DNA of 64,000 bases from Hypomyces perniciosus (lineage: Eukaryota > Ascomycota > Sordariomycetes > Hypocreales > Hypocreaceae): contig SPDT01000004.1 in the NCBI GenBank assembly GCA_008477525.1, forward strand, positions 4,216,001-4,280,000, read 5' to 3'. Shown in pieces: positions 2,978 through 25,761 of the stretch (its first letter is position 1; every line of letters begins with the position of its first letter). Position numbers and translations under genes: made by a program. The notes under the pieces were generated by a model that had not been told where the DNA came from, did no database searches, and worked only from the letters and a program-made list of their open reading frames with translations.

Positions 2978-3502
2978 ACCCAGAAATGCTGTAGCAGGGC
3001 TCGAGATTTAAACGGACTTGTCAATCGGCCAGTGCACTGAGTAAAATCCGTTATAAACGCTCATCGAGGTCAAAGGCCCCTTGCTAGGCCCTTGTCCAGG
3101 GCCCCTGCTGGTACCAGCCCTGCAACATCGTATAGGTACGAGTAGTTGAACGTTACTAGGCGGGGGAGTACGAAGTAGGGATATGGGTATTAATAGATAC
3201 CAGATTGAGTACTCGTAAAATAGGTTGTCTAGGTGATTAGTAGGCTGAATACGGAGTACGGAGCACTTTGCTTTGCACGTTCCGGGTGGGCCGGTAGGGC
3301 GAAGCATGATGGCTTGCATCCAAAATGTAATGGTACAAGAAGGGGTCTCCCTCAGTCTGAGCAGTCTTTGATCGTGCATCTTTTCTCTACTTTTGACTTC
3401 GTCAACGAACCGGCTTGTCCCTACGGCGCGAGATACCCCTGGAACAAAACCAAGTCTGAGACTTACCTCCGTCTTTGACTCTGTATTACTCCATCGCTAA
3501 AG
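2978..3502. other. Intergenic, no gene seen
   Basis: No ORF with family features. It carries one copy of the 9-mer TACGGAGTA at 3250-3258, partly repeated at 3255-3263. The stretch just before 3503 should be the promoter of the downstream SDR gene. Confidence 0.4.
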
Positions 3503-4489
3503 ATGACCGGCATGTGGCTCTACACACTCGCCGGCATTGGTGTCGTGACAATTTCATTTGCTGCGTACACTGTCTTTGACTTTGTGGTTTTCCATTTCAT
3601 CACTCCATCAGCGCCACTCAAATCCTACAAGCGTACAGGCCCCGATCCAACATTTGCCCTCATCACGGGTGCCAGCGCGGGCATCGGCCTCGGTGTCGCG
3701 CAGGAGCTGGTCAAGCAAGGTTTCGGCGTCATTCTTCTCGGTCACCTGGCCGAAGAGCTCGCCGAGGCTAAGTTGCGGCTCGAGAAGCTCAAGCCTGGGG
3801 CTGCGGTGCGCACCTTGGTCATGGACGCGATGACAGCCAGGCCAGCCGAGATGGAAGCCGCCGTGAGGTTGCTGGAGGGTTTGCAGGTCTCTATCCTGGT
3901 GAACAACGTCGGCAGCAACCCCGTCGCCCTACCGGCCTTCCGTACCCTGGCGACGTACTCGAGCGCCGATGTCGACGCCGTCATCGACATGAACGCACGT
4001 TTCATGGCACGCATCACGGCGCTCATGCTTCCTATTCTGAGCCGTAAGCCGGGTCAGGTCGGCCAACGCTCACTGATCATCAACATGAGCTCGATGGGCA
4101 TGATTGGCGTGCCATGGCTGATCATGTATGGCGCAACCAAGGGGTTCAACCTCGCATTCAGCCATGGGCTGGCGCGCGAACTGGGGACGTCGTCAGAGAC
4201 TAGCCACATCGACTGCCTTGCCATCCTGCCCGGTGACGTGCTGAGCCAGGGCAACTGTAAGGGGGTACCAAAGAATGCGCCGACATGGGATCACTATGGA
4301 CGGTGGATTGTAGAGAAGGTGGACGGTGCTGTGCGACGCAAGAAGAGGAACATGAGCCCACACTGGCCGCACGATCTTCAATTTAGGATCCTCTCATGGC
4401 TAGACGAAGGGACAGTGACGGCAGAGATGGACAAGATGATAAGGAGAAAGAAAATTGCATGGAATGGCCCTCACGAGAAAACACAATGA
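3503..4489 (+). CDS. Membrane-anchored SDR, very-long-chain 3-ketoacyl-CoA reductase / HSD17B12-like
   Basis: Single exon, 328 aa, ATG at 3503. A hydrophobic stretch at residues 5-32 looks like an N-terminal membrane anchor. A classical short-chain dehydrogenase fold follows: cofactor motif TGASAGIG at 55-62, an NNVG motif after the mid-domain, the active-site Ser196 in NMSSMGMIG, and Tyr209/Lys213 in YGATK. This layout is typical of the ER enzyme that reduces 3-ketoacyl-CoA during fatty acid elongation (yeast Ifa38) and of 17-beta-hydroxysteroid dehydrogenase 12. Fungi often have several divergent paralogues, so the true substrate is uncertain. A C-terminal KKXX signal is absent; the tail ends HEKTQ. 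Confidence 0.82.
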   Translation: MTGMWLYTLAGIGVVTISFAAYTVFDFVVFHFITPSAPLKSYKRTGPDPTFALITGASAGIGLGVAQELVKQGFGVILLGHLAEELAEAKLRLEKLKPGAAVRTLVMDAMTARPAEMEAAVRLLEGLQVSILVNNVGSNPVALPAFRTLATYSSADVDAVIDMNARFMARITALMLPILSRKPGQVGQRSLIINMSSMGMIGVPWLIMYGATKGFNLAFSHGLARELGTSSETSHIDCLAILPGDVLSQGNCKGVPKNAPTWDHYGRWIVEKVDGAVRRKKRNMSPHWPHDLQFRILSWLDEGTVTAEMDKMIRRKKIAWNGPHEKTQ

Positions 4490-9652: not shown

Positions 9653-11092
9653 ATGTTTGCGACGTTCAAATTCAACGAAACCACCAAAGGCCACAAGTAT
9701 ATCAGCCGGTCGGATCATCCGTCGTCTGCCAACGACAAGGGATACACACGCACTGCCTGCGATCTGTGCCGTGCGAGAAAGGCAGGTCTCGTCCATATAT
9801 CTATAATATGATGACAACGATGATGGCCCAACCAGTCCTAATACCGCTGGCTGGCTGCATCTGCATTAGCTAACCCACTCCTCTTGCTGCAGTTAAAATG
9901 CAGCGGCGGTAACGAGGGCTGTGACAGATGTCTGTCTGCGTCCAGCGCCTGTACCTACACCCTCAGCTCGGGTATTGGAGCAGGAAAGAAGCGTTTACGA
10001 AAGGTCACCACAGCCAGCTTCAAAACCGCTAGACTTCCCCAGAAGCCGTCCTCGGAATCGACGTCACGGTCCTCCCGTGAGACATCCGCAAACACCATGC
10101 ATGATGCCCAGCCACAGATCGGCGGAGGAAGAAGCGAAGGGAGGCGCCAAACGGAACAGTTGGGCTTCCTAACGTCCCCTGCGTCATGGTCAAATATCGA
10201 CATGGAAATTGACAATATGTTCCACGTCCCTTCAGATGACAGCAGCTTTTTGACGGGCGACAGCTTTACCATGTGTCCAGGCAAGATCGTCTCCAAGGTC
10301 CCACCACCAGTCACAGACCAAGAGGCGACGCAAATCACGGGCAGACAAACATCCACCGTTGGTGCAGGCTTATTGGAACTTTTCGAGTTGGGCCAGTTAC
10401 CCGAGGAGAGGAGTTTCCCATCGCAGCGAAGGCGACCTCAGCCCAGTGGTGTCTCGCTTCCAGGAGAGACCTTGAGTCAAGGCACAACAGCTCCATCCAC
10501 AGCTCCATCCACAGCTCCATCCACAGCATCATCTGCACGGCCCCCAACGCGGAACGACGCTCCATCTTCTTCCACTACGACCACTATGTCCGGCCAATGT
10601 GGATGCCTGTTCTCCATGTTGCAAACCCTGGAAGACCTCGGCGTGCAATCATCCGCTAGTGCAACAGTCACGTCGACCGATAGTCTCTTCCTCTGTTTAG
10701 AGAAAAACATGGAAAAATGCCGCATGATGCTGTCGTGCATGTCCTGCGACACAAGCGCTTCCAGTCCAATACTGGTTATCACCATCGCAAATCACCTGGT
10801 CATCGTCGTGACTGAACTGGCCAATCGCTTCATTAACTGCCAGTCACCGGACACTGTGCCTACAGTGTTCCAGTTTGGCCGATACTGCGTTGAACACCCT
10901 GCGCTGCGGACACGACTTTTGGGGAGTATGATAGAATTACATGTTAGGGACCTACAACGTTTGATCATTTGCCTAGAATCTAGTCTGGCGGGCAAGCAAG
11001 GCTCAATGTTGGATGATGCAAAGAACAAGCTGGAGAAGATACACCGAGTCCTACAGGACTTTGGGTCTCCAGACTCTGGCATTAGTGTCTAA
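9653..11092 (+). CDS. AflR-like Zn2Cys6 transcription factor, two exons
   Basis: Exons 9653-9781 and 9893-11092 give 442 aa. The Zn2Cys6 cluster is split by the intron and reads CX2CX6CX6CX2CX6C (Cys36, 39, 46, 53, 56, 63) only if the intron 9782-9892 is removed. That intron starts GC (AAG|GCAGGT) and ends CAG, so it is a GC-AG intron; the nearby GT would break the cluster. A Ser/Thr/Pro-rich middle contains a short APST repeat (12-bp DNA unit around 10488-10525). The C-terminal half (CGCLFSMLQTLEDLG onward, then a helical segment with ANHLVIVVTELANRF) resembles the aflatoxin-regulator domain of AflR-type cluster activators. It is convergent with the MFS gene and probably controls the following genes. 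Target genes are inferred from position. Confidence 0.85.
10488..10525 (+). repeat. Short 12-bp minisatellite inside the regulator gene
   Basis: About three tandem copies of a 12-bp unit, ACAGCTCCATCC, encode the repeated peptide APST. The unit is a multiple of 3, so copy changes keep the frame. It lies in the low-complexity linker between the DNA-binding and AflR-like domains. Confidence 0.75.
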
Positions 11093-11331
11093 TATTCTCA
11101 GTCATGTATAATAATGAAGGAAACTGACTCGAAGGCTAACCAAACTACCTGACTGGCAGCTGGCATTAACATTGAAGAAAACGAAGCAAACAGGCCATGC
11201 TCAACAGATGAAGTAGCAAAAAAGCCAGGGGTTTCGGAGGTGCCCTCGTGGTTGCACCTATACACTGTGTCTAAACTAGTACAATGCAGCAGATACAAAG
11301 CTATTTCCGTTTCCTTCCCTTGCCTTCGTTT

Positions 11332-13221
11332 CTAACCGAATACCTTCTCCCGCGGCAGAGCTAGGCTGGAGAGGAGAGAGGCTGCACCGGTTGCCAGGAC
11401 TGGCACAAAGGCAAACTGGATGGCTCTTGCAATCGCATGTATGGCCGCAGCCGCCATCTCAGGGCCCGCAGAGGTAATCAACGCGCTTTCGGCACCAGCC
11501 ACAGCCTCAGAAATCTGTTCGGCTGTGGCGTCGGGGAACAGGTTCTGAAGACCCTGGCTGGCGATATTGACGAACACAGCGCCCGACATGCCAGTGCCCA
11601 CGGCGATGCCTAGCATCTGACTGACCGTCATGAAGCCAACGCTGGCAGGTATATCCTTGGAAGAAACTTTCATCTGGGCAACGGGAAAGCCGGCCTGGCA
11701 GTACGCGCCGACGCCGACACCGAGAAGGATGGTGTAGCCATAGATGTTGGCATTGCTCGTGTGCTCATCCACGGTATCTGAAGGTGTGTGCATGTTTATT
11801 AGTCGATCAAAATTTCTTCTTTCCTCCGGGGTCACCTGGAATTGGGTCGTATAACTTACAAAGGACGGCACCGCCGATGGTTTGGAGAGCCGCTCCAAAG
11901 AGATACCATGGGTAGAAGTAACCCGCCTTTCCCATAAATTGGCCGTTGATCAGCACCGTTGCCGACAGGAAGAGAATGAATGGGAGAAGGTAGAGTGAAG
12001 TATCCAGGGCTGTCGCGCCACGGGTGAACTGGAAGTAAAGGGGCAAGTAATAAATGCTGATAAAAGTTCCAAAGGCGGAGAACACTGGTGACAGTCAGTC
12101 AACCGATTAGTCCCAAATTCAGCTGTGGGCAGGGGTCATATCGTACTCATCGTCAAGAAGAGAACAACCAGTGTGCGGTTCTTGAAGAAATGCATGGGGA
12201 AGATTCGGTGTTCTAGGGAGGTGCCAATATTGTAGATTTGTTGAATGCAGAAGAGGACAAGGAGGACGGCCGCGAGTATAAACAGAGAGATACTGCGTCG
12301 ATCGGGCCATGTCCAAAGAACACCACCAAAGTTCATGGCCATCATGATACTCAGGAACGTGCCGGAAGAGAGCAAAGCGCCGATGTAGTCCAGCATCGCC
12401 AGGCGGGCACGGAGGGGGACGCCTAGCAGTGGCTGGTAGTCGGGCAGCACGATAAAGTAGACGGGAGCTGCGGCGCCACCGACACACAAGTTGAGATAGA
12501 AAGCCCATCGCCAGGTAGCTGGGCTCTGAGCGAAGGCGCCGCCGATCACAGGACCTAGGACGGTGCCGATGCCCCACCAGAAGCCCGTCAGGCTGAGATA
12601 TTTAGGCCGTTCCGTCTCGCTGGTGTTGACGGAGAGGATAGTCAATAAGCCCATGTACATACCAGTTCCACCGATGCCGGCGAGCGCTCTCCCCACGATG
12701 AAGGTGTCAATGTTCGGGGCGCCACCACATAAGGCTGAGGCGCCCATGAACAGGGTGGTGCCCCCGATGAAGAGCCACTTCGCCGAGAAGGTACCAAAGG
12801 ACTTGGACCACACGAGAGTGCTGGCGGCTGAGGCGAGGGCAAAGGAGACGCTGAGCCAGGGAACAAGTTCGACCCTACCGAAGTCATTGACGATGGCAGG
12901 CTGGATTGTTGCCACGATGGTTGTGTCCAGCGCGTAGAGCAAGAAGGAGGCTAAGAGAGAAACGACGACAAGGGCCCACTAAAAGCAAGCAAGCAAGCAA
13001 AAAAGCGTGAGTCAACAAGATCATATCATCATAGCCTGAGGAAGGGGTAGTAATCATACCTTGATTCCATGGATAGGTCGTGGTGAGCCAGAAATTTTCT
13101 CTCCGATCTCCTGCCCGGCACTGCCTTGGCCATCATCTTGTTCGTTGAGGGCCACCCTGCTCCTGTTGTTGTTTTCCATCTCTTCGCCACTTGCGGCGGA
13201 TGTCTCGAACGGAGTCTCCAT
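11332..13221 (-). CDS. MFS multidrug/toxin exporter, DHA2 (14-TMS) type, four exons
   Basis: Exons on the minus strand: 13221-13060, 12978-12147, 12084-11860 and 11777-11332, all with GT..AG introns and continuous frame; 554 aa. A charged cytosolic N-terminus of about 54 residues ends at the first intron. Membrane segments then begin with WALVVVSLLASFLLYALDTT, which holds the D-T-T-I-V motif of drug/H+ antiporters. Further hydrophobic segments continue to a C-terminal block, with the family motif YTVDEHTSNANIYGY spanning the last splice junction. Members export toxins, pigments and other metabolites through the plasma membrane by proton antiport and commonly sit in biosynthetic clusters. The gene is convergent with the AflR-like regulator (239 bp between stops). 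The cargo is unknown. Confidence 0.88.
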
Positions 13222-14445
13222 GGCGTAGAGTCAATGGTAAAAGAAGCTCTCTACTCACGAATGATATCTCCTCCTTCACTTGTAACCGACAACTTGTAGA
13301 TGAGACAGAACAACTTTGGGGCAGCGGCAGCGCCCTCAAGCTTCTTTATACTGATGGCCTTAGCCATTGCGGTTGTAAGTTCGTCCGTGGCCCTGTCATT
13401 CAGAACAGATATTCAACGTGTATTCCGGGAGTTTGGTAAATTAGTAATGATGTCCGTCAACAAACGGATGGAATATGAGTCCGATTTCAGAAAATTGTAA
13501 CTCTATAACCCTGTCAATCACCCGCAACGGACCGCCTAATATTATCTAAGCAGCCCAATCTGGGAATCCCGCAAATCTCGGAACTCTTCCCAAAATGGAA
13601 ATTTCCTAAAGAGGAAATGTCCAAAAAGGGACGACCTCCGATGTTCGAGCAATTTCAGCTTTCGCATTCTCGGTATTGTGCCGCTCATCACTGGGACATG
13701 CCAGAAGATCTTAGCAAACTCCAAAATGCCCCCAGCACACGCGGAAAGTCCCTCTACTCTATTTCCGAGGTGATACTCATTCCTCCGTCTTTCTCAGCGC
13801 AGCTTCGTCATCAAGTCCAGACTCCGGAGTCAAATAAACACATACACAAATGAACACAAACAAAAATAGGTGGAACCTTTATAATTCTGTATGAAATGAT
13901 GCAAAATCAGCATTCCGCAGTCTGTTGCGGCCAGCTGGTCCTCCACGAGAACCTGCTGCAAAGGGTGTGAAGGCCATGCGATGCCTCTTCTCGTTGGCCG
14001 CCTCGTCTGCCCACGAAGTAAATATCTCTAGAATTGCCTAAAAAGACCCGTACTTTTGTCCTGCTGGTAGAATCCTGAGCACCCTGTTTTAAGGGTGAGC
14101 CTTGACGCCTCCCGCTGCGCTGATAGGTACACGAAGCTGCACAAAACACAAACTTCACTCGCGTCGCGTTGAAGAATAATGAGACTCATTAGACACCGAT
14201 GAAAGACCGTCATGTCGTGAACAGCTTGTCAGCTTTTTATTTGTGGGCGGGACAGATATTGAACAAGTTAATGAAGACAAAAAGCTTCGACTGGTAGATG
14301 GAGACGAGATGACAGTTCCCATTTTCTATTGTACTGTCCGGCTCGCCTAATTGGCTTACTCGCACTGCAAAATAATGATGATTCTCTCACACAATTTCCC
14401 GATTAGGTAACGAAGTATGCAGAAATGACAACGAGACCATGAAAC
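13222..14445. other. Intergenic, no gene seen
   Basis: About 1.2 kb between the MFS start and the ATP-grasp stop, both on the minus strand. Short ORFs here have no family features. The part next to 13222 should be the MFS promoter. There is a small palindrome GGAAATTTCC near 13597. Confidence 0.4.
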
Positions 14446-16308
14446 CTAGCTTATCTCCCATTTTAGATTACTTTTGATCTCCTCGCATATTCTGAGGGCA
14501 TCTTCGCGACCATTGTCACTCTTGACGATGAAAAATGTGACCCATGAAGCTCTCTGGCTGGGATCCTTGACTACGTCGCCATCTTTAAAAAAAAGTATTT
14601 TTTCGACAACATTTTCCATCAGGTGGGGAAGCTTGTCTCGTAACTCTTCAAACATATTCTCGCCGCGAAAAATGCCAGCTCGAGGAGTCAAGACAAACTG
14701 CGTAATCACACAAGTGTTATTCAGATCCTCAAATGGCAGGGATAATATGCGAGCGCGGCAAGTATCGCCTATGCAGAGAAGAAGCTGTAGAAGAGCGTAG
14801 TCTATACCATAGCAAGCTGAGATGGCCGGTTGTCCAGGATAGCCGGGGGGTCGCGGATTGATCTCGATGAGCATCGTGCGCGGTTGCTCTCCTGGTTGAG
14901 CTTCTCTAATCTCCAATCTTGGCAGCCGTGTTGAGTTCCCGCGGGTCCACACCATCGAGGATCCCACTATGCGGCCTTCTAGATGAAATATCCCGTGAGT
15001 AAGTCCGAGTTTCTTCACGGATTCTAATGCTGTCTGGAATAGGATGGACTGCTCCGACGATGGTAATATAGACGGCCAGATAAGTCTGTCCTCAATGAAC
15101 GAAGCCGGCTCACTTTTACAGCCGTTCGACTCCGCAGAGCATGGTGGTGCGTCGTTGATGTCATAGAAAACGATGTCTCCATCGACAAGAGCAATGTTTA
15201 CATCTACTTCCGGGCCATCGATGTACTTCTCCAATAGTGCTGCGGAGCCTGAGTGAATCACACCTTCGACCAACAGTTCAGCCTCGGGAATGGATTCAGC
15301 CTTGTTGACTCCTGTTGAATTCCCTCCACTACGAGGCTTGACTATCAGAGGCAAATGAGATGCTAGATCGTTGGCGATGGCATGGAAATCTTGCATTGAT
15401 GTTACACAGAATGAAGGGCAATCATCAATCGGGAAAAGGTGCCGAAATCTGTCTTTCCGAGTGCAAATATCCAGCATGTCTGGCGAGTCTGTTGGAAGGC
15501 CGAGGATCTGAGCAACCTGTGCTGTTGCCACGCGATACCTGTCGGAATAAGTGGTAATGCCGTCGAGTCTCAACTCGCATTTTCGACAAGCAGTGACTAG
15601 GCGATCGCACAGTCCCTCATCTATAGACATATCAACGGAGACGAACATCTCGCGCGCATCCGCCCATGACTCCATCCAGTGGCCTGGCTTGTCGATGATC
15701 ACAAGACGCAGCCCAGATGCTGCTGCTGCGTTGAACATGTCATTGCGGAAGCCAGGACTGAACCCCCCGCCAATAACGCAGACTGTTTTGGCTGAACAGG
15801 GCTCGGTAATTGTCAGGGAAATGCTGAGCTTATTGAATAGTTCTTCGGACAGCTGGTCGAGACGGGACTTGAGGTTGTTCTCATCAGTTTCCTGGATGAT
15901 GATGACGCTGAGGGTCGATGAGAGAAGGGACGTCATGTCCCCGCGGATGATGTCGCTTTTTTGCGCTCTCAGCATCGCTGACAATCGCGCGCATGGTGCT
16001 GTAATATCGTAGATCGATTGAATGGTACGAATATGCTGAAGCCGGTATGATATGATGTCCGATCTGACAACATATCCTTCTCTGGGCGAGCCAATAAATA
16101 TGACCGCAGCCGGCTGTGCTTCCACACGAAGGGTGTTTAGATGCTGAAACAAGCGCTTTCCACCCGCAGTAATTGGGTCCCAGTAGGATTGTTCGTGTTG
16201 CAACGACAATACGAGGTTTTTGATATGGATATCATTGTGTAAATGCACCTCGAATTTGCAGAATGTCTGTTCTGCGCTGTAATTCACCTTTCCAAATAGG
16301 CCGTCCAT
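14446..16308 (-). CDS. ATP-grasp ligase (carnosine-synthase-like peptide/amide ligase)
   Basis: The frame is open from 16569, but the first 87 codons look like leader; the Met at 16308 (MDGLFGKV) gives a sensible 620-aa protein. The N-terminal half carries a Rossmann-like block (VCVIGGGFSPGFRNDMF) and GHWMESWADA, as in the pre-ATP-grasp region of carnosine-synthase-like enzymes. The ATP-grasp core includes PLIVKPRSGGNSTGV (phosphate-loop lysine), LLEKYIDGPEVDVN, and the Mg-binding MLIEINPRPPGYPG. Such enzymes join an amino acid carboxylate to an amine through an acyl phosphate. It is divergent from the hydrolase-fusion gene, with 471 bp of shared promoter, which argues for joint use. The substrates are unknown; dipeptide formation is inference. 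Confidence 0.85.
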   Translation of the reverse strand: MDGLFGKVNYSAEQTFCKFEVHLHNDIHIKNLVLSLQHEQSYWDPITAGGKRLFQHLNTLRVEAQPAAVIFIGSPREGYVVRSDIISYRLQHIRTIQSIYDITAPCARLSAMLRAQKSDIIRGDMTSLLSSTLSVIIIQETDENNLKSRLDQLSEELFNKLSISLTITEPCSAKTVCVIGGGFSPGFRNDMFNAAAASGLRLVIIDKPGHWMESWADAREMFVSVDMSIDEGLCDRLVTACRKCELRLDGITTYSDRYRVATAQVAQILGLPTDSPDMLDICTRKDRFRHLFPIDDCPSFCVTSMQDFHAIANDLASHLPLIVKPRSGGNSTGVNKAESIPEAELLVEGVIHSGSAALLEKYIDGPEVDVNIALVDGDIVFYDINDAPPCSAESNGCKSEPASFIEDRLIWPSILPSSEQSILFQTALESVKKLGLTHGIFHLEGRIVGSSMVWTRGNSTRLPRLEIREAQPGEQPRTMLIEINPRPPGYPGQPAISACYGIDYALLQLLLCIGDTCRARILSLPFEDLNNTCVITQFVLTPRAGIFRGENMFEELRDKLPHLMENVVEKILFFKDGDVVKDPSQRASWVTFFIVKSDNGREDALRICEEIKSNLKWEIS

Positions 16309-16779
16309 TGTTGATTTGTGTAAAGCGGCAAAGTGTCTAGGTTGATGGGACTGGGCAAGCAATCGGGCTACAAGGACGGGTAACTTTGAAGATAACTGGG
16401 GAGAAGGGAGGGAAACTTGGAAAGGAGTGCAATTATAGAAATGGAACAAGTGTAACTTCGTGGTATCGGGTGTTGGGTCTTGGTGTGAGACAAGTCGTGC
16501 ACAGCCTGGTTTTATTGACGGCCTTACACCATGGGTGGCCTTAATCCGAAGATCGTCGCAGTCTGCCAATCTGTGGATAGTCTTGTGTGAACGGAGTCGG
16601 TGTCAGACAGAGGGAGGGGGGCGGAAACAAAACGATGAGTAGTGCCTTTTGTTTTTCTTTTCTTTTTCCCCCTTTGGGTGCTCAATCGTTATGTACTTGA
16701 CTTAGTATTATCTCAACCGAAATCACATCTAGGTCCCACGGTTTTCTGCCCCGTCCTCATCCATACCTAGACAGAGGCA
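16309..16779. promoter_or_regulatory. Bidirectional promoter, ATP-grasp ligase / hydrolase fusion
   Basis: 471 bp separate two divergent starts. A pyrimidine-rich tract (T and C only, roughly 16646-16673) lies about 110 bp before the hydrolase ATG. CGGAGTCGG near 16594 is a direct CGG pair of the kind Zn2Cys6 proteins bind. Binding by the regulator at 9653 is a guess. Confidence 0.4.
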
Positions 16780-19380
16780 ATGGCTACACGGCCTACCTAT
16801 GCCATTGTTCTACATGCCGGTGCTGCAGAGTCATGGATTGGAGATTCAGAATCACATAAGAGTATCCAGAGCTTCTTGGGGTCAATTATTACCCAAGCGG
16901 AACATGCGTTGACCAGAGGTGCGCCCGCCATTGATGTGGTGGTAGATGTCGTCGCAGCCCTCGAAGATTACCCTGAATTCAACGCGGGCAGAGGCTCTGC
17001 CCTGAATATCGATGGCATTCATGAGGTGAGTCCATGATTTCTTCTTCTTTGAGTCCGACTACAACACTAATGTTCCGCGAAAAAAAAGCTCGAAGCAGCC
17101 GTGGTCGATGGCAATACGTCCAAGTATCGTGCTGTCGCCGGCTTGCAACACACCAAAAATCCAGTACGGTTGGCGTCAGCAATGCTATCTCGCACTGGTG
17201 CATCCTTCATTTTTGGCAAAGCAGCGGAAGATATGGGGTCGAAAATGGGCTTTCAAGCTGTGGAAAACCCCTACTTTACCACCCCGAAACGAAAGAAGTA
17301 TTGGGAATCTCAAATCTCCAAAGTCAGATCTCTCGAAGAAGATCATGGCACGGCTGGGGCTGTGGCATTAGATCTGCATGGTAATCTTGCTGCCGCAAAC
17401 ACCACTGGCGGCATGACTTTCAAGGTGGCTGGTAGACTTGGTGACACAGCAGTTCTTGGTGCTGGATTGTGGGCAGACAAGCGTGTCGCAGTTGCTTGGT
17501 GGGTATTCCATGTTCGTCCAACGCTGCAACGTCTCTAACGATATAAATTGAGTAGCAGCGGAAGCGGAGAAGCCATATTGCAGTCTGGGGTGGCGGGTAG
17601 AATAGCTGCGGACTTGGGCAGCGGCAAATCTCTCGACGATGCGGCGCGAGGCGTTCTCCTCGACTCAGCAAAGGTATTTCCACGATCATCCTGCGGTATA
17701 ATCGCAGTGTCAGCGGACGGCAACATCTCTATCCAGTCCAATAGCAGACTATTTACTGTGGCGGCTTCATCCTCTCGGACGGCGTTACGGTTTGCAAAAA
17801 TATTGCCGTCATCATTTCCTATACTCAGTCAGCACGTCTTCTACTCGGACGACATGATGCAAGCCGGGTTGGCGAAATATCCTACGATAAGAAATCAAAT
17901 TGTTGTGGAGATAAGAAAAGGTCTCCTGCTCCAGACCATGGATTTGATGATCTTCTTGGTATTCTTTTCTAAGATCTGCAAACTTACCCGCACTATTCGA
18001 GCGGTTCTGAGGTCCGAAAGCATCGGTTTTTGCACGGAAGGCAATAGGAGGACTTTCCTGTTTCCTGTCTCGCATGGAAAGTTAAATGGTGTATTTGAGA
18101 AGAATCTAATACCCAGCAATGCGGAGCCTTCATGGAGGCATTGTCCGGATGGCGGAAGTGAAGGACGACCTCAGGAGTCCAAACTCGAAGCAGGCCAATG
18201 CTTGCGGAGACAAGAGCCCTCTCAAACAAATTTCTGGGTGGAGGATCTGGATGATGGTCATTTTATCAAATTCTGGTCGTCTTGCTCTGCGGAGGACTCT
18301 TTCAGCAAAGCACAAATCTCCCGCCGAGAAGAAGGCTTGGCCGAAGATTTATTCTCTTTACCGCACATACCATATAATCGCCTTATATCAGCAACTTGGA
18401 AAGCTCTAAGAGTAATTTCCACGAAGTTCAAGGTTTCATTGCAGTCCTTGGGAATTGAAGCCCTGCCTATGCAAGGGATATCGGGTCCGATTATTGTTAT
18501 CACCCTGATCGAATCCTCCTCACAGTACTTCCCGGCCCCGGCTCCCTATCATGAAGAATATCGGGGCGATCTGAGCAAGGAATATGGTGCGCTTCCTCCA
18601 GACCTGGAGGTATTTTCGTCATTGGCCCATGACATACGGACACTGTTGAGAGCAGAGACACATAAGGAGAGCCAAGCTGGAAATGGGAATTTTAGTGTCG
18701 ACGCTCTCAACTTTGGCTTGTTGCTGCCAGCCCACAAGGCAGAAATGCAGCAAATATGCTTTCACGAACTTTTCAAGTTTCTTGGGAGCAATTTGGGGTA
18801 TAGGTTCTCGCCAAAGATCTCCTCAATGTCGAGCCAGGGACTCGTGTCGATGCCGAAAAACCCTTTTACTCTCCTCGCAGTGCCATATGACTTCACTGGC
18901 GTCTACGACATCACCACCCTACCAAATGCAACAGCTGAGCCTGGAGCACCTTTAATGGGCACTATAACTGTCTCTGTTGTATTGTCAGGAACGCCATCGA
19001 ATGGTATGGAAACCCTGGGGCGAATTCTGAGCCATTTAATCCAGGTCTCGTCGGATTGGGTCCGCCAAGCAGAACCCCCATCTTTCGAGAAAATATTACA
19101 GCGCTTTTCAACTTACTTGGTAAACCTCGGATTATGGCTAGATGGCACGAAAATAAGTGATGATAGCCAGCAAATTTCCACGCTGATTTGGCACCATACG
19201 AAGGTGGGTTGTATGAGAGTATGGGATGAAGATCTTACGGGATCGGACCCAGGTATTTACTGCTTGTATGGCGACGCTACCATTATGAGCCCGGGTGAGG
19301 GTAGCACAGAGGCAACGTTACCCAAGATCGTGGGATTTGAGTTAGACATGGGGGAGTTCTTGGAACTACTGTGGAAATGA
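16780..19380 (+). CDS. Threonine-aspartase/isoaspartyl-peptidase-like Ntn hydrolase fused to an unrecognised ~535-aa domain
   Basis: Exons 16780-17025, 17089-17498 and 17556-19380 give 826 aa with the frame intact. Residues 1-290 are an N-terminal-nucleophile hydrolase of the asparaginase-2/Taspase group: VLHAGAAESW at the start, NAGRGSALN, the predicted autoproteolysis site before Thr170 in DHGTAGAVALD, then NTTGGMTFKVAGRLGD and CGIIAVSADGNIS. Such enzymes are cleaved to alpha and beta chains and hydrolyse beta-aspartyl or asparagine amides. The reading frame then runs on without a stop for another 535 residues I cannot assign; it is soluble-looking, with FWVEDLDDGHFIKFW and a C-terminus ending in an acidic ELDMGEFLELLWK. 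Normal family members stop near residue 300-350. A missed intron with a stop, or a real fusion, are the options. The second acceptor is a TAGCAG tandem; TAG gives the family-like CSGSGE. Confidence 0.78.
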
Positions 19381-19486
19381 CGTCAAAGGTCAGTCAGCGC
19401 TGTTGCCAAAGGCTTCTGCTGTAGGTTGTGAAATAAATTTATCTATTTTACCAATTAAATCTTTATGCGGGCACGTATTTGGTAAT

Positions 19487-20110
19487 TCACTGAGCAGCCG
19501 CTCTCTCTAGATAACCTCCCAATTCTGGGGAGATCTTCATCACATGTTCCAAGATCCTTCGTGCTGACTCTTCCACCGAAAGCCCGGAAACATCCAACCT
19601 TAACAAGGCATGGTGGTCATCGAATCCGTATAACTCTGCATTATCCCTGAACTTCTTCACCAATTCCACATCAACAAGCTTCCCATGGCCGGCTCGGCCA
19701 CTCGCCACCAGCCTCGTCAAGTTGGTCTGTTCATCGCAAAAAAGCATAACGGGTATGAAGTCACACCCTCGCTTTGCAGCACAGTCCACATATTCTTGAC
19801 AAACAGCTTGTCCAAGACTATTAGAGGCCTGGAAATCCGTGAAGATGTATGCAGTCGGGTGAGTAGCTGGCTCATGTATGAGCGAGAAGAAGATGGCTGA
19901 GCGAATCTGATGGCGGAGATCTTGATAGCCTGGTTGCTCACGGTGAAGAACAGCGTCTGCGGGATTGATAAGGAGATGGTTATGAACGAGTTTAGCCGCA
20001 GAAGGCTTGAATAGAGCCGCCAGAGCTTGGGCAATGGTCAATTTTCCTGTCCCTGGAAATGCATTGAAATGGATGATGGGGAGAGGTCGTGGACTGTTCG
20101 GGTGAGCCAT
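19487..20110 (-). CDS. P-loop NTPase, small kinase-like (AAA_33/zeta-type fold)
   Basis: Single exon, 207 aa, ATG at 20110. The N-terminal phosphate loop reads FNAFPGTGKLTIA, a form common in an uncharacterised fungal P-loop kinase family. A second block, AYIFTDFQA, fits a Walker-B-like strand. Later segments (FIPVMLFCDEQTNLTRLVASGR and HHALLRLDVSGLSVEESARRIL) match the lid and C-terminal helices of small-molecule kinases. The stop lies 106 bp from the stop of the hydrolase fusion (convergent), and the start faces the aaRS-like gene with 777 bp between. The phosphorylated substrate is unknown. Similarity to zeta-toxin or chloramphenicol phosphotransferase folds is general and does not show such activity. 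Confidence 0.72.
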   Translation of the reverse strand: MAHPNSPRPLPIIHFNAFPGTGKLTIAQALAALFKPSAAKLVHNHLLINPADAVLHREQPGYQDLRHQIRSAIFFSLIHEPATHPTAYIFTDFQASNSLGQAVCQEYVDCAAKRGCDFIPVMLFCDEQTNLTRLVASGRAGHGKLVDVELVKKFRDNAELYGFDDHHALLRLDVSGLSVEESARRILEHVMKISPELGGYLERAAAQ

Positions 20111-20887
20111 TCTAGTGGCTTGTGGTGTTGATGAATGACTGATGATTGCCTGTTGAAATGGGGAGTCCTTCGGACAGAGTCATGAAAAGGGTCGCCTGGA
20201 TTGCTACCGAACGTATGTATTGAGAAATCAGTCAGGCCAAGTTCAATGTTGCCTGGCTCGCAAAGTGGAGGTGTCACACTAGAGGAAATGTAACATCATT
20301 TAACATATCCGCAGGGCTTCAGAGGCAATAGAACGACGGGTTATTAATGAAGATGCCGTGGATGCTTGGACAGCTGTGGCCTGATGCTTTCATGACTGAA
20401 TGCATTACGATAAAAAGGGCTATGTATGTATGGATCAGAGGACATTTGTGTAAGGCCGCCTGCAATGAAAGGTGGAATCCCGTCACTCGCTGCGAGTCTC
20501 ATTCGTCCAATGTGTAATTACGAATGAGGCAACAGGTGGCGTGACTTGATTGGGCTGACCCCGAATCGACAAAGCAAAGCCGAAGTCACAGCGAAAGGCC
20601 ACCAGTATGGCACGGCATCAAGGGATGCAGATCAGCCATCTGTGTCTCCTCCCTTGCAACAGTGGCGGACAGAACTTCTTGAATTGGGCACCAAAGAAAA
20701 CATAGATGACCAGGTTGCTGACAATGACATGTAGGCTACGCACGTATAAAGGCATGGAGATGGCCTGTCGAATTCCTAAACTTTTCTCTCATCAAGCTTC
20801 CAACCATCCACTTCACGTTCGACTGAAACATCTTTTACATCAGCCTTAGTATCTCTCTTCCACGAAATACCGAAAACAACTACCACC
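20111..20887. promoter_or_regulatory. Bidirectional promoter, P-loop protein / aaRS-like synthetase
   Basis: 777 bp with no convincing gene. A TATA box TATAAA lies at 20745-20750, about 140 bp before the plus-strand ATG. The plus-strand start has a good fungal context (ACCACCATG). No further sites can be supported. Confidence 0.45.
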
Positions 20888-22018
20888 ATGACTGTACAGA
20901 CTTTGGTCGAAGTTGCCCCCGTCAAGACCAGCACAAACGGTTACCTCGAGCGCAAGAATGGAGCCCATGCAAAGAAGATTGTGCCTAAGCTTTGGCAAGA
21001 GCCGCAGACTTTCGCCGTGAAGGCCATGCAAAACTCGTGGTATTCGGCCATGTTCGGGCTTCAGAGCACCTTATTCCACTCCTCCATCGACTTCTTCCGC
21101 CGGCAGATGGGCTACAAGTACCTCATTGTGCCGATTACGACGAATAGCATTAGCTCGCCTATGGGACTTGGATCTGACTCGCAACCTGTCAGTATTAAGC
21201 TTCACGGCGAGGAGACGTATATCGCCGACTCGCAGCAGTTTGTGCTCGAATATGCCCTGCGACTTGAGGATGGGCTTAAGGGGTCTTACTATGTCGGTAC
21301 ATCTTGCCGTGGAGAGGACCCAGACGCGACACACTTGAACCAATTTTGTCATGTCGAGTGCGAACTGCTCGGAGAGCTTGATGCGGGCATTGACGTGGCC
21401 AATGGCTATGTGATTTCCCTGACCGAAGACCTCTTGCGCGAGCATGCCGATGCCATTCGGTCCTACGCGGGTACCACCAACCATCTTGAGTCTTTGATCA
21501 AGCTTTATAAGAGCAATGGCAACAAATTCCCTACTATCACGCTTGATGATGCGCTAGCCCTGCCGGAAATGGCCGATGATATGTGGCAGTATGTTGTCGA
21601 GGGCCAGCCTCAGTTTGGACGCTCCTTGACCCGTAAGGGTGAACGCATGCTGATTGAGAAGTTCAGCAGCGCGTGCTGGCTCTTAGAGATGGACCACCTC
21701 AGCGTGCCTTTCTACCAAGCTCACTCCGACGCCAGCCTCATGAAGGCCCGATGCGGTGACTTATTGCTTGGTCTCGGAGAGGTTATTGGATGTGGCCAGC
21801 GACACAAGACGGAAGAGGAGGCTCTAGGGGCTCTTCGCCAACACCAAGTGGATCCTCAGGAGTATGCATGGTACCTCGACATGCGACGCGTCAAGGCTCT
21901 GACCACGACGGGATGGGGAATCGGAACGGAGCGATTCCTGTGCTGGGTTATGCAACATGATGATGTTCGGGACATTCAACTCCTGCCAAGACTCAAGGGT
22001 ATCGAGTGCGCTCCTTGA
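20888..22018 (+). CDS. Asparagine-synthetase-like class II aaRS paralogue (AsnRS/AspRS core without anticodon domain)
   Basis: Single exon, 376 aa. The fold is the class II synthetase core of the Asp/Asn group: motif 2 region LNQFCHVECEL at about 150-160, an ERMLIEKF segment, and motif 3 TGWGIGTERF at about 341-350 with the invariant Arg. No OB-fold anticodon-binding domain precedes the core; only about 40 residues stand before it. Archaeal AsnA-type enzymes with this architecture turn aspartate into asparagine through aspartyl-AMP, so an aspartate-activating or amidating role fits. A tRNA-charging housekeeping role is unlikely without the anticodon domain. It lies beside an Ntn asparaginase-like gene and an ATP-grasp ligase, which suggests a cluster role. 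The exact reaction is inference. Confidence 0.8.
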   Translation: MTVQTLVEVAPVKTSTNGYLERKNGAHAKKIVPKLWQEPQTFAVKAMQNSWYSAMFGLQSTLFHSSIDFFRRQMGYKYLIVPITTNSISSPMGLGSDSQPVSIKLHGEETYIADSQQFVLEYALRLEDGLKGSYYVGTSCRGEDPDATHLNQFCHVECELLGELDAGIDVANGYVISLTEDLLREHADAIRSYAGTTNHLESLIKLYKSNGNKFPTITLDDALALPEMADDMWQYVVEGQPQFGRSLTRKGERMLIEKFSSACWLLEMDHLSVPFYQAHSDASLMKARCGDLLLGLGEVIGCGQRHKTEEEALGALRQHQVDPQEYAWYLDMRRVKALTTTGWGIGTERFLCWVMQHDDVRDIQLLPRLKGIECAP

Positions 22019-23452
22019 GATGCCTCTGTGACTCTGGCTTGTGGCATGTGTCTAAGACGGCTACTACTAGTTGAATTATTGCCAAGAGGCTCAGTGGAAT
22101 GCTTGCTTTTTCTTTTTACGTATACGTGAATTTCACGTGGATCGCGTCAGGTTCGTGTTGTATGCAGTCCACATTAAGATCAATGATGGGTTCAAACCCG
22201 TGTTTTGAGTGCAGTTTTGCTGCTCGTTTTTAAGTGATTGATTTTATATGTACGGAGTAGTGCATGTTACGTGCCTAGAGGCTTAATTGCCTATTATCTT
22301 GTTACTGAAACTTATACATCGATCTGCTCTTACGATACCTTCGTGACCTAAGCTTCCTCCTCTCTTCGCTGACTCTGTCGCTTGTTCTATGACAATTAGA
22401 GCATCCCGAAATTGCACCCTATTTTTTTGACACTGTACAAGTAGGATATCACTTGTGCATATGGAGTAGGGGGTCAGATCTTGACCCAGACAATCACTGT
22501 CGATCACGAAGGACGAGTAACACATAGATATTAGTATGAAGTCAAAAATGTCTTGGTCCGGTATTTACTTAATGAGGGAAAGATCTAAGCGATAGTAATT
22601 TCCTAGCAACATTCCCTTGCCCTCGCCAACCTCTGAGTTCAAGCCGTCACGTTCATTTTGCTTCATATAACCGATAAAACACCGGCGAGATGCGAAGTCA
22701 TATTACTTCGTATACCTATCCAGTTGGTATAATAAGGGACTCTAGTTGGTAGGTACTCTATACTGCTAGCATCTTAACATTCATTCGCAAATATCTCCTG
22801 TAGATCTTTTCCCTCTACGAGGCATATATAGCCTAGTTGTATTAGTAGTAGAAGTCTAAGACAGCTTTCACTTAGTGCGTAGGGGGTTGTAGTACCATTC
22901 GTCATCGACAGTGCATGGTCCTCTCAGATTCTATGCAGATCAGATCTCCGAGGACCACTACCCAATCGAGCGCTGTGTTTCTGAGCCAGCCTTCGGATGG
23001 TTCCGTGGCGAGCAGCTCTCACAGGCCGGATGCGGTAAGTGGTCGTGCGGAGGAACAGGATTTGGACAGATCAGCAGAAACTCCCCTGAACCTCATTTGT
23101 ACCCCTGAACGGCGTCCAATCTGTTGATAGTGGTGGCTGATGCGGCGTCTTAGCGATCATCCTGATCGCGTTGACTGTTTGACTCGTGTGGTCATATCTA
23201 CTGGTATTTGGATACTATTACATCATCGTCTGTGCCCGAAACCGTACAAGTTCCTCCCACTGGGCCACCAGCATGATGAGGCGTTCGAACCGAGTGGGTA
23301 ATGATTGACATCGCACCGCTGACCACAGTAGGAGGCCCCGTCAGACAGTTGCCACAAAGTGTCGATAAGAAAAATCGCTACACCATGTAAAGGTGTAAGG
23401 ATACTTTTGTCTATGGTGCTGTTATTTTGTTTTAATTGACACATAGCAAGCA
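22019..23452. other. Intergenic, no certain gene; possible 5' leader of the MFS gene
   Basis: About 1.4 kb without a recognisable product. TACGGAGTA occurs at 22251-22259. A 70-codon ORF at 22915 is Ser/Thr/Gln-rich and could be an upstream exon or leader. The bases just before 23453 end in ACATAG, which could be the acceptor of a 5'-UTR intron. Neither can be settled here. Confidence 0.3.
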
Positions 23453-25761
23453 ATGGAGCAAGAGCGCCAGACGAAACATGAGTCCAGGCAAAGACTCTTG
23501 GAAGATGAACTCGAGCTACAGGACTACTCTGAAGGCACTTCCTCGGCGGTCTCAAGACCAAGCCACGAGGAAGAATATGAAAAAAACGTTGATGAGAAAG
23601 GGCCTCGCTATAACCTCCCAAAATCGAGGCTTATGATGCTCATCATAGGCAAGTCTGCGAAAACCCTCTGTCTCCAGCTTTCTACTCGCTGGCGGCGCAA
23701 CACGTCAAACTGCTAACGACATGATGGGACAGCCGTTCTAGTATCGAACTTCGTGAGTCACAAGGCCTCCATACCAGCAGCGAAGAAGATATTGTTTTGA
23801 TGACATGTTCTTACCGTCCGCAATAGTCAGCCGCCGTTGATACTGGACTCTCGGCGTCCACTCACACCGCCGTCGCCTCAGCCTTTGACCATACCAACTT
23901 GCAATCCTGGCCAGTCAATGCCTTTGTGGTTGCCTCGATGACAATACAACCTCTCTATGGCCGATCATCGGATATCCTGGGCCGCAAGATACCGTATCTT
24001 GTTGCATCCACTGCGTTTGCCATTGGCATTGTGATGTGTGCCTTTGCCCCAAGCTGGGAGCTGTTAATTGCATCTAGAATGCTCTGCGGCCTTGGCTCTG
24101 CTGGAATTACGACAATGGGTATGTGACCGGATCCACTCTCTATACATGAGCGGGTAGCATCGCGGACAAGTTTATCAACAGGGTCTTAGGTTCTGTTGTC
24201 CTCACGGACGCGGTCGGACTAGCCAAGAGAGGGTATTATCAATCCATCAACTATGCTGTATACGGCGGAGGGTCCGCGTAAGGAATCGTCGTCCCATACT
24301 CTTTGACACGGAATAGCACGGCTGACTCGTCTCTCTGGGATAGACTCGGGTCTGCTTTTGGCGGTGCCGTGGTGCAACATCTTGGCTGGGACTGGGTGTA
24401 CAAGGTTGGCCTCTCCCAACTACAGCGTCGAAATAGACTCTAACCTGGCGCCATTACCACAAGACTCAAATTCCCATCTCCGTCCTTGCGCTTGCTCTCT
24501 TGTCCTTCCTGCTTCCCGCCAAGCCTGTGACAAGTGACAGGGAACAGCCTGATGTTGGAAGATTTGAAGCAATCTTTCGACAATTTGACTGGCTAGGGTC
24601 CGTCTGCTTAGTGAGTTCACAGAAAAGTCCTAGTTTTATGTTTTCATTTTGGTCTAACAGTTCTAGATGCTTACCCTTCTAAGTTTGTTTGTCTTCCTCA
24701 CATTGGGGGGGAATGTATACCCATGGAGCCATCCGCTCGTCCTGCTGTTTGGCTTAGCTACAGCAGTCGCTGCCGTGTGCTTTTTGTATATCGAGACATG
24801 TGTAGCTCGACCTGTCCTACCTCTCTACCTCCTTGTTAAATTCCCTGCTCGCAATATTATGTTTGCTGGGTTTTTGACGTCTTTCGTCAACTACACGGTA
24901 TGCCCAGAGCTGTCTTTCTTGACCTGCTCTAATTTGATGCTTATCTATCCGGTTATAGGCGCTGTATAACACGACACTATTCTTCCAAACGGTTCATCTT
25001 GACTCTGTCCAGGACGCTGGATTTAAGCTACTTATACCATCACTATCATTTACTGTAGCGAGCTGCATGACAGGAGTCATCACTGCAAGGCGCAAGAGTC
25101 CAACGCTGACTTTACAGCTAGGCCAAGGATTTCTTCTCGTCGGCACAAGCGGCCTAGTCTTCATGGCAGCTACATTTAGGACGCTCAGTGTTCCAGATTG
25201 GACATATAATGTCATGCTGGCTATACCCATTATTGGAATCGGTATGCTGGCATCGAGCACCGTACTTGCATTGTTGAACGTCACTCCAGCCGATGACCAG
25301 GCTGTTGCTAACGGGTGTCTCATAATGGTGAGGTCGCTGGGAGTATTCATTGCGACCGCCCTCAGTACTGCTGTTTTGCAGAATACCTTCTTGGCCTTTC
25401 TCCGGCCGGACCAATATGACGAAGAGAAACAGCTGGTAAGCGGCGACTCTACCTCTTCATTCTTCCCTCTTTTGTCAGTGGCCTGAATTGGGGTGATGAT
25501 TCTGACCCGAGCTACAGATCATTGAAGCCGTTCGCCAAAACGCAGAAAGATTGCTTTCAGTTGAGGAGCCTCTCAAGCTACAGAGTAAGTCTGCATCGGC
25601 TTTTAATCATAAAAGACTGCTGACAAAATCAAGTCATATTGGCATATGAAAAGGCTTTTACTGCCGTGTATGGAACCTGTGCCGTCGCCGCCGTCGCCAT
25701 GATTGTGTCCCTATTAGCCGTCAAGGTAGGCAGTTTTGGGAGGAACAAGGTAGCAGGATAG
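23453..25761 (+). CDS. MFS transporter (Fnx1/drug:H+ antiporter-like), ten exons
   Basis: Exons: 23453-23648, 23733-23752, 23827-24118, 24190-24277, 24344-24404, 24464-24610, 24667-24897, 24959-25435, 25518-25584 and 25634-25761; 1707 nt, 568 aa, frame intact. The first intron is GC-AG (ATAG|GCAAGT), and the second exon is only 20 nt. About 58 charged residues precede the first membrane segment (LMMLIIAVLVSNFSAAVDTG). The loop motif PLYGRSSDILGRK and the motif RMLCGLGSAGITTMG follow; the segment NYAVYGGGSALGSAFGGAVV is the usual conserved helix. This group exports drugs or moves amino acids across plasma or vacuolar membranes. As the last gene of the set starting at 9653 it may move the product or an amino-acid precursor. 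Exon 6 acceptor (CACAAG) is the least certain junction. Confidence 0.8.

Follow-up and report, generated by a model that had tools for sequence, protein, structure and literature searches.

A cluster of seven genes in the ascomycete Hypomyces perniciosus may encode a pathway, independent of nonribosomal peptide synthetases (NRPSs), to a small aspartyl- or asparaginyl-derived amide; on the sequence evidence assembled here we regard that assignment as evenly balanced between right and wrong. The cluster occupies positions 9,653-25,761 of the window, i.e. the whole stretch of 64,000 nucleotides analysed (contig SPDT01000004.1), which derives from a 44-Mb genome assembled in 23 contigs; its introns and relatives mark it as fungal. 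Gene models and domain scans reveal, in order, a Zn2Cys6 regulator (+ strand), a major facilitator superfamily (MFS) transporter (MFS1, -), an ATP-grasp ligase (-), a protein with an N-terminal nucleophile (Ntn) hydrolase domain (+), a P-loop protein (-), an enzyme resembling the core of asparaginyl-tRNA synthetase (AsnRS; +) and a second MFS transporter (MFS2, +). All seven genes that the initial annotation of this DNA had predicted were found where it had placed them. Its proposal that they form one cluster is supported by neighbouring locus tags in Conoideocrella, by fusions between the Ntn hydrolase and the aminoacyl-tRNA synthetase (aaRS)-like enzyme and by bacterial gene neighbourhoods. 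The S66 peptidases, HIT hydrolases and isoaspartyl peptidases that accompany the AsnRS-like family have the aspartyl bond as their common denominator, and it is from this, together with the logic of the fungal E-64 and the AcmF/AcmE pathways, that we infer an aspartyl- or asparaginyl-amide product.

The AsnRS-like enzyme, the Ntn protein and their fusions

The AsnRS-like gene (20888-22018, +) is intronless and encodes 376 residues, of which 47-369 match PF00152 (91.4 bits). No other Pfam family scores over its cut-off and the protein therefore has no anticodon-binding (N-terminal OB) domain, which agrees with its initial description as an aaRS core; nor does Pfam find a tRNA-binding domain of any sort. 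The signature SSPMGLGSDS lies at 21152-21181. Across 43 aligned rows of the family the motif 2 arginine (R141) is kept in every one and the motif 3 arginine (R349) in 42, while the acidic residue of motif 2 is E in 39 and D in the other 4. Because these three residues are kept, adenylate formation is expected of the family and, because there is no anticodon domain, tRNA is a less likely acceptor than a small amine.

A truncated class II aaRS-like enzyme working beside a hydrolase that cleaves its product has a precedent in ascamycin biosynthesis, where the reaction of AcmF is undone by its partner hydrolase AcmE (PMC12945691, available portion). By analogy, the window enzyme might, like AcmF or SbzA, transfer Asn or Asp from a charged tRNA to a small acceptor without ATP. 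We consider this very unlikely. As described in the same portion of that source, AcmF is a tRNA-dependent member of the AlaRS family that has lost its ATP site, being without most ATP-binding residues, whereas the window protein belongs with AsnRS, retains the arginines of motifs 2 and 3 as well as the acidic residue of motif 2, and has neither an anticodon-binding nor another tRNA-binding domain that Pfam recognises.

Profile collections disagree with respect to the nearest characterised relative. The best NCBIfam model is asparagine synthetase A (PRK06462), at 205.6 bits against a cut-off of 322, with asnS at 116.4 bits against 342.6; in a PDB profile search, by contrast, AsnRS (1x54) is best at 134.6 bits and archaeal asparagine synthetase reaches 60.7. 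All six further family members scanned score 197-237 with PRK06462 and all lie below the NCBIfam cut-offs. Since it falls below both cut-offs, we place the family in neither asnS nor asparagine synthetase A; the label 'AsnA-like' given initially thus holds as regards the best NCBIfam model, but not as regards its cut-off or the PDB ranking. With archaeal asparagine synthetase (PDB 1nnh/3p8t, PRK06462) the window enzyme shares a class II core devoid of an anticodon domain and its best NCBIfam score, but it differs in scoring below the curated cut-off, in its own signature and in having hydrolase partners. With class II AsnRSs it shares motifs 2 and 3 and the best PDB profile match, but it lacks their anticodon-binding domain and is under the asnS cut-off. 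Database labels are equally mixed, i.e. asparagine--tRNA ligase, asparaginase like 1 or beta-aspartyl-peptidase. The genome has 13 other PF00152 matches, in seven places by our count; four of eight loci from those places give a BLAST match to the AsnRS-like protein, at 21.7-24.8% identity, which argues against a recent duplication of a housekeeping enzyme.

The NCBIfam ranking is what would be anticipated if the genes served nitrogen or isoaspartate salvage, with an archaeal-type asparagine synthetase working alongside an Ntn hydrolase that recycles isoaspartyl peptides and with no specialised product. The presence of the family in fish and in Lingula, and its fusion to Asparaginase_2 in carp, are also consistent with such a role. 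We nevertheless think it unlikely, given that the asparagine synthetase score is below the curated cut-off, that the PDB comparison favours AsnRS (134.6 bits) over archaeal asparagine synthetase (60.7 bits), and that the neighbours include two MFS genes as well as genes for a Zn2Cys6 regulator and an ATP-grasp ligase.

The Ntn gene comprises three exons (16780-17025, 17089-17498 and 17556-19380, +) and encodes 826 residues. Its N-terminal isoaspartyl-peptidase/asparaginase domain (aa 1-300; 16780-17799) is recognised by Asparaginase_2 (PF01112) on two exons, at 118.4 and 35.1 bits (gathering cut-off 27), and the predicted nucleophile, T170 (17350-17352), aligns with residue 1 of the solved beta-subunit chains of isoaspartyl peptidases. 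The likeness to the enzymes of PDB entries 2zak and 4o0c, which we take to be EcAIII and ASRGL1, extends to the catalytic Thr and the overall family; the window protein differs in its 500-residue tail, in which two degenerate HIT domains are followed by an unassigned end. The Ntn domain of the 'Ntn asparaginase-like fusion' of the initial annotation is thus confirmed, and its fusion partner is corrected to two degenerate HIT domains plus a tail. Three further places in the genome hold Asparaginase_2.

The first HIT domain (aa 308-391; 17821-18072) aligns by hhalign with HIT1 of HIT-HIT-aaRS proteins at a score of 78, the maximum in 40 column shuffles being 19.8, and the second (aa ~483-575; 18346-18624) with HIT2 at 71.3, compared with a maximum of 19.9. 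No Pfam HIT match was obtained in the window Ntn protein. Of 12 hand-picked relatives with HIT domains, 11 have the YAHVKLIP-type site of HIT2; none of four split-type proteins, that of the window included, has it. The C-terminal tail of ~250 residues (18625-19380) is possibly a decayed aaRS-like domain: the full-length comparison extends collinearly beyond HIT1 and HIT2, reaching the start of the aaRS-like domain. This assignment is a suggestion only, because the tail alone does not clearly exceed shuffles (24.6, equalled or exceeded by 2 of 200 shuffles; 21.3 with another profile, for which the count was 13 of 200). Smaller runs with the tail alone gave a 40-shuffle maximum of 22.2 and, versus A1, a score of 19.8 beside a 30-shuffle maximum of 21.0.

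Relatives of the AsnRS-like protein were taken as the best 120 of 410, in a search limited to lengths of about 207-658 residues. Proteins from carp and from Fusarium flagelliforme combine Asparaginase_2 with the aaRS-like domain, both sequences beginning inside the asparaginase domain, and of 10 proteins scanned 5 pass the Pfam HIT cut-off and are thus HIT-aaRS-like. The fullest arrangement is in a Parabeggiatoa bin (locus L087, 88-4497), where one frame of 1,470 residues contains a carnitine acyltransferase, Asparaginase_2, HIT and the aaRS-like domain; it has a YCHVKLIP site, with one HIT recognised by Pfam and the first HIT read from the alignment. Within this frame the carnitine acyltransferase comes first, ahead of the asparaginase-HIT-aaRS fusion. 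A quick maximum-likelihood tree was made from 73 hand-picked rows, some of them cut down to their aaRS portion. In it the sequences from eukaryotes and Parabeggiatoa group as a single clade (support 100) nested among the bacterial sequences. The window sequence falls in a fungal subclade (16 rows; support 99) whose members are mostly stand-alone proteins and whose first branch is the Fusarium fusion (support of the rest 91). The simplest history would be that an ancestral asparaginase-HIT-HIT-aaRS fusion was split in the lineage of the window; the window Ntn protein would then be a decayed form of that fusion, which is seen whole in the bacterial bin and partly in fungi and fish.

Linkage in fungi and bacteria

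The ATP-grasp ligase (14461-16308, -; 615 residues), predicted as such at the outset, matches PF18130 (55.6 bits) and Dala_Dala_lig_C (27 bits) over their cut-offs, with ATP-grasp_4, at 23.5 bits, below its cut-off of 27. Its PDB sequence matches, at 25-30 bits, are D-Ala-D-Ala ligases and the L-amino acid ligase BL00235, and there is one paralogue in the genome (35% and 26% identity on two exons). It is 51% identical to QQS21_010988 of Conoideocrella luteorostrata. In that fungus the tags of the aaRS-like (QQS21_010985), Ntn (QQS21_010987) and ATP-grasp genes follow the order of the window, with one tag (010986, not seen) where the window has its P-loop gene; the longest contig given for each is 43,616 bases.

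The initial annotation had proposed a search for co-occurrence in other fungi, and, as far as match tables allow, Conoideocrella is not alone in providing it. The aaRS-like and Ntn matches in Colletotrichum fioriniae PJ7 are both listed with a contig of 275,967. Merged gene models occur in three fungi, joining Ntn to MFS in Trichoderma SZMC 28012 and Colletotrichum salicis (P0124, P0127), and MFS to the aaRS-like protein in Aspergillus desertorum (P0091). The MFS parts of these models are 37.5-44.9% identical to MFS2 of the window and have no match to MFS1. P0091 aligns with 63% of the aaRS-like query at 62% identity, and no family was assigned to it by Pfam. The search for Ntn relatives scored the 7,998 candidates sharing most words and returned 7 matches, so that it is no census.

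The window also contains unrelated genes, such as that for a hAT transposase, as might be anticipated if the seven genes had come together by chance. The neighbouring Conoideocrella tags, the merged models in three fungi, and the fusions in a bacterial bin, fish and fungi make a chance gathering of unrelated genes exceedingly improbable, and we reject it on this evidence of linkage and fusion.

For bacteria we analysed neighbourhoods of the best 80 of 136 relatives from a genome scan, 59 of the loci being at least 15 kb and 21 shorter. In a six-frame hidden Markov model (HMM) search, with an S66 HMM made from four Pfam-confirmed members of the loci (E under 1e-15), an S66 peptidase was found in 63 of 80 loci, compared with 0.40 expected; clustering of open reading frames (ORFs) gave 53. 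In at least one S66-less locus (L009) an S66 match lies across the edge. ATP-grasp was found (E under 1e-7) in 14 loci with an HMM of the fungal proteins and in 20 with a second HMM, built partly from 11 ORFs of 9 of the 80 loci, which match by construction; 1.07 were expected and a first count had given 16. Expected counts apply Pfam rates in 20 host genomes of our choosing (40 S66 and 106 ATP-grasp_4 in ~132 Mb) to the 1.34 Mb examined. The one S66 protein compared with PDB sequences is closest to MccF-type proteins (best 376 bits; 125 to MccF 3gjz), with murein carboxypeptidases at no more than 62 bits.

Asparaginase_2 occurs in only three of the bacterial loci (L067, L068 and L087), all of them among the 17 that have no S66 (p = 0.008 if independent). 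Restricting the count to loci of at least 15 kb, both Asparaginase_2 loci are S66-less, where 12 of 59 are without S66 (p = 0.04). This post hoc test suggests that an isoaspartyl peptidase can replace the S66 peptidase. In the fungal genome there is no match to S66 (PF02016).

The recurring S66 partner raises the question of resistance. MccF of the microcin C system inactivates aspartyl-nucleotides by cleaving their carboxamide bond (PMC9239234), and HIT hydrolases, MccH among them, do so at the phosphoramidate bond (PMC12250964), as the accessible parts of both reports describe; S66 proteins are partners of the AsnRS-like family in bacteria and HIT domains are fused to it. The window genes could correspondingly be a detoxification unit against aspartyl-nucleotide inhibitors, the aaRS-like protein serving as decoy target and the hydrolase as the detoxifying enzyme, a proposal to which the MccF character of the single S66 protein compared lends some weight. 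We find it quite improbable. Detoxification has no need of an ATP-grasp ligase, but such a gene is part of the linkage in the window and in Conoideocrella, as well as in 14 to 20 of the 80 bacterial loci; the HIT sites are gone from the fungal split version; and the catalytic motifs are highly conserved, seemingly beyond what a decoy would require. The window further differs from the microcin C system in that the fungal genome gave no S66 match and the window protein has no intact HIT site. A search of the seven genes, to which it was confined, gave no ThiF-like (MccB) match.

Other genes recur in the bacterial neighbourhoods. Methyltransferases form ORF clusters in 32 and 13 of the 80 loci, and P-loop kinases are also present. 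Single examined loci hold YcaO, AMP-ligase or NRPS domains, or other aaRS-like genes (L030, L079, L085, L086), company that fits poorly with nitrogen or isoaspartate salvage. The neighbouring aaRS-like matches range from 200.8 bits (MetRS-like) to 27.2 (AlaRS-like) and 22.7 (HisRS-like), the latter two being below the Pfam cut-off. With respect to individual arrangements, three loci, all from proteobacterial bins, have the common order ATP-grasp, P-loop, AlaRS-like family, S66, AsnRS-like and methyltransferase (L081, 4805-10838; L082, 4891-10848; L086, 2702-8531); the AlaRS match is that of L086, and L081 gives none. The family with the weak HisRS match (PF13393; obtained on the L085 member and not on L042) is in 9 of 80 neighbourhoods by ORF clustering, with members at L032 4553-5653, L062 10843-11952 and L085 12126-13232. 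In Vibrio ostreicida (L079, 4078-5691) the class I MetRS-like gene (PF09334) stands between two S66-family ORFs.

Remaining genes and surroundings of the cluster

The regulator gene (9653-11092, +; exons 9653-9781 and 9893-11092) encodes 442 residues and matches PF00172 at 33.7 bits; its spliced frame yields CX2CX6CX6CX2CX6C, a zinc motif that is complete only if a GC-AG intron (window 9781-9893) is assumed. The initial assignment to the AflR type stands as to the Zn2Cys6 class and not as to AflR, no AflR Pfam model giving a match at E 0.01. The MFS genes were assessed exon by exon rather than as full spliced proteins. MFS1 (11332-13221, -) matches PF07690 at 84.1 bits on exon 12139-12978, and its exon 11335-11949 has no Pfam family; MFS2 (23453-25761, +) matches PF07690 on one exon at 25.6 bits, below the cut-off of 33.4. 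The P-loop protein (19487-20110, -; 207 residues) has a GTGK nucleotide-binding motif and one distant paralogue in the genome (33%).

Both divergent pairs reported initially are real, with intergenic regions of 471 bp between the start codons of the ATP-grasp and Ntn genes (16309-16779) and 777 bp between those of the P-loop and aaRS-like genes (20111-20887); the claim made for them was of common promoters. The initial annotation was also correct that no NRPS or polyketide synthase (PKS) is among the seven genes, but there is a PKS-NRPS hybrid 16 kb downstream. This is an 11.4-kb open frame (42031-53457, -) with KS, AT, DH, MT, KR, C, A, PP and reductase-type NAD-binding domains. Between it and the cluster lies a 783-codon open frame (38338-40689, -) with a hAT transposase dimerisation domain. 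On the other side of the cluster there is a haem-containing dehydratase gene (1787-2977, +; PF13816, 345.7 bits), presumably encoding an aldoxime dehydratase, and then a short-chain dehydrogenase gene at 3479-4489.

Proposed chemistry and its implications

In the pathway that we envisage, the AsnRS-like enzyme would activate aspartate (or asparagine) as an adenylate and transfer it onto an amine, while the ATP-grasp enzyme would make a second amide by way of an acyl phosphate. The Ntn isoaspartyl peptidase may cleave an (iso)aspartyl amide or nucleotide, either in maturation of the product or in protection of the producer, with the two dead HIT domains being relics of the ancestral asparaginase-HIT-HIT-aaRS fusion. 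The MFS proteins would export the product and the Zn2Cys6 protein would turn the cluster on. Amide chemistry on aspartate or asparagine, as the initial annotation had it, is the most economical reading of the genes; the order it gave, i.e. activation, ligation and then trimming, is not supported. The split of the ancestral fusion, the substrates and the sequence of reactions are inferred, as are the part played by the hydrolase, the product and the regulation.

The closest fungal parallel is the biosynthesis of E-64 by the cp1/cp2 clusters, where, from the part of PMC12568646 that is accessible, an ATP-grasp enzyme and an amide bond synthetase act without an NRPS. In each case a small NRPS-independent cluster has an ATP-grasp ligase beside a second, adenylating, amide-forming enzyme. 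They differ in that the E-64 pathway, in the same part of that source, has an amide bond synthetase as its second ligase and also includes a warhead oxygenase, whereas the window has an AsnRS-like core and an isoaspartyl peptidase; neither an AMP-ligase-type amide bond synthetase nor an Fe/2OG oxygenase was found in the scanned stretches of the seven genes. A fumisoquin-like cluster of Clonostachys with an ATP-grasp gene (PMC5999785, consulted as a partial text) was looked at and not used as a comparator. A search of open-access papers turned up no account of either the cluster or the AsnRS-like family, which is weak evidence of novelty.

Several observations count against the proposed amide pathway. 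The evidence for linkage in fungi consists of locus tags, contig sizes and merged gene models in match tables, and linkage of the ATP-grasp gene is indicated in only one other fungus, Conoideocrella; in Colletotrichum somersetense the aaRS-like and ATP-grasp matches are on contigs of 36,321 and 38,138, respectively, and linkage was not seen. The fish and brachiopod (Lingula) members of the AsnRS-like family sit poorly with a function confined to fungal secondary metabolism. For the P-loop protein, no match in Pfam, NCBIfam or PDB was obtained at the thresholds applied. The mutual exclusion of S66 and Asparaginase_2 is weakened by L087, which is only 6,460 bases, so that its lack of S66 says little. 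Finally, five upstream regions were compared and yielded no convincing common regulatory motif: among gapped patterns GGA-N14-GGA did best, with 7 occurrences compared with 1.9 expected, in 4 of the 5 regions, an excess that we judge to be at chance level given the many patterns tried.

A broader, and distinctly speculative, possibility is that the AsnRS-like family constitutes the synthetic half of a cross-kingdom system, in bacteria, fungi and animals, for making aspartyl-nucleotides or aspartyl-amides. Its hydrolase half would be interchangeable, being an MccF-like S66 peptidase in most bacteria and an isoaspartyl peptidase with HIT domains in fungi, fish and a few bacteria. If this is true, the fungal cluster would represent, in a eukaryote, the counterpart of the aspartyl-adenylate chemistry of microcin C type, operating with neither a ribosomal precursor nor an NRPS.

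The proposed pathway would add an aaRS-derived ligase, beside ATP-grasp, to the amide-forming logic of NRPS-free biosynthesis in fungi. Cluster finders keyed on NRPS, PKS and terpene genes are expected to miss clusters of this type. The results may also provide a testable function for the core-only AsnRS family of bacteria, fungi and fish, for which the predicted partner reaction is cleavage of an (iso)aspartyl bond by an S66 peptidase, a HIT hydrolase or an isoaspartyl peptidase.

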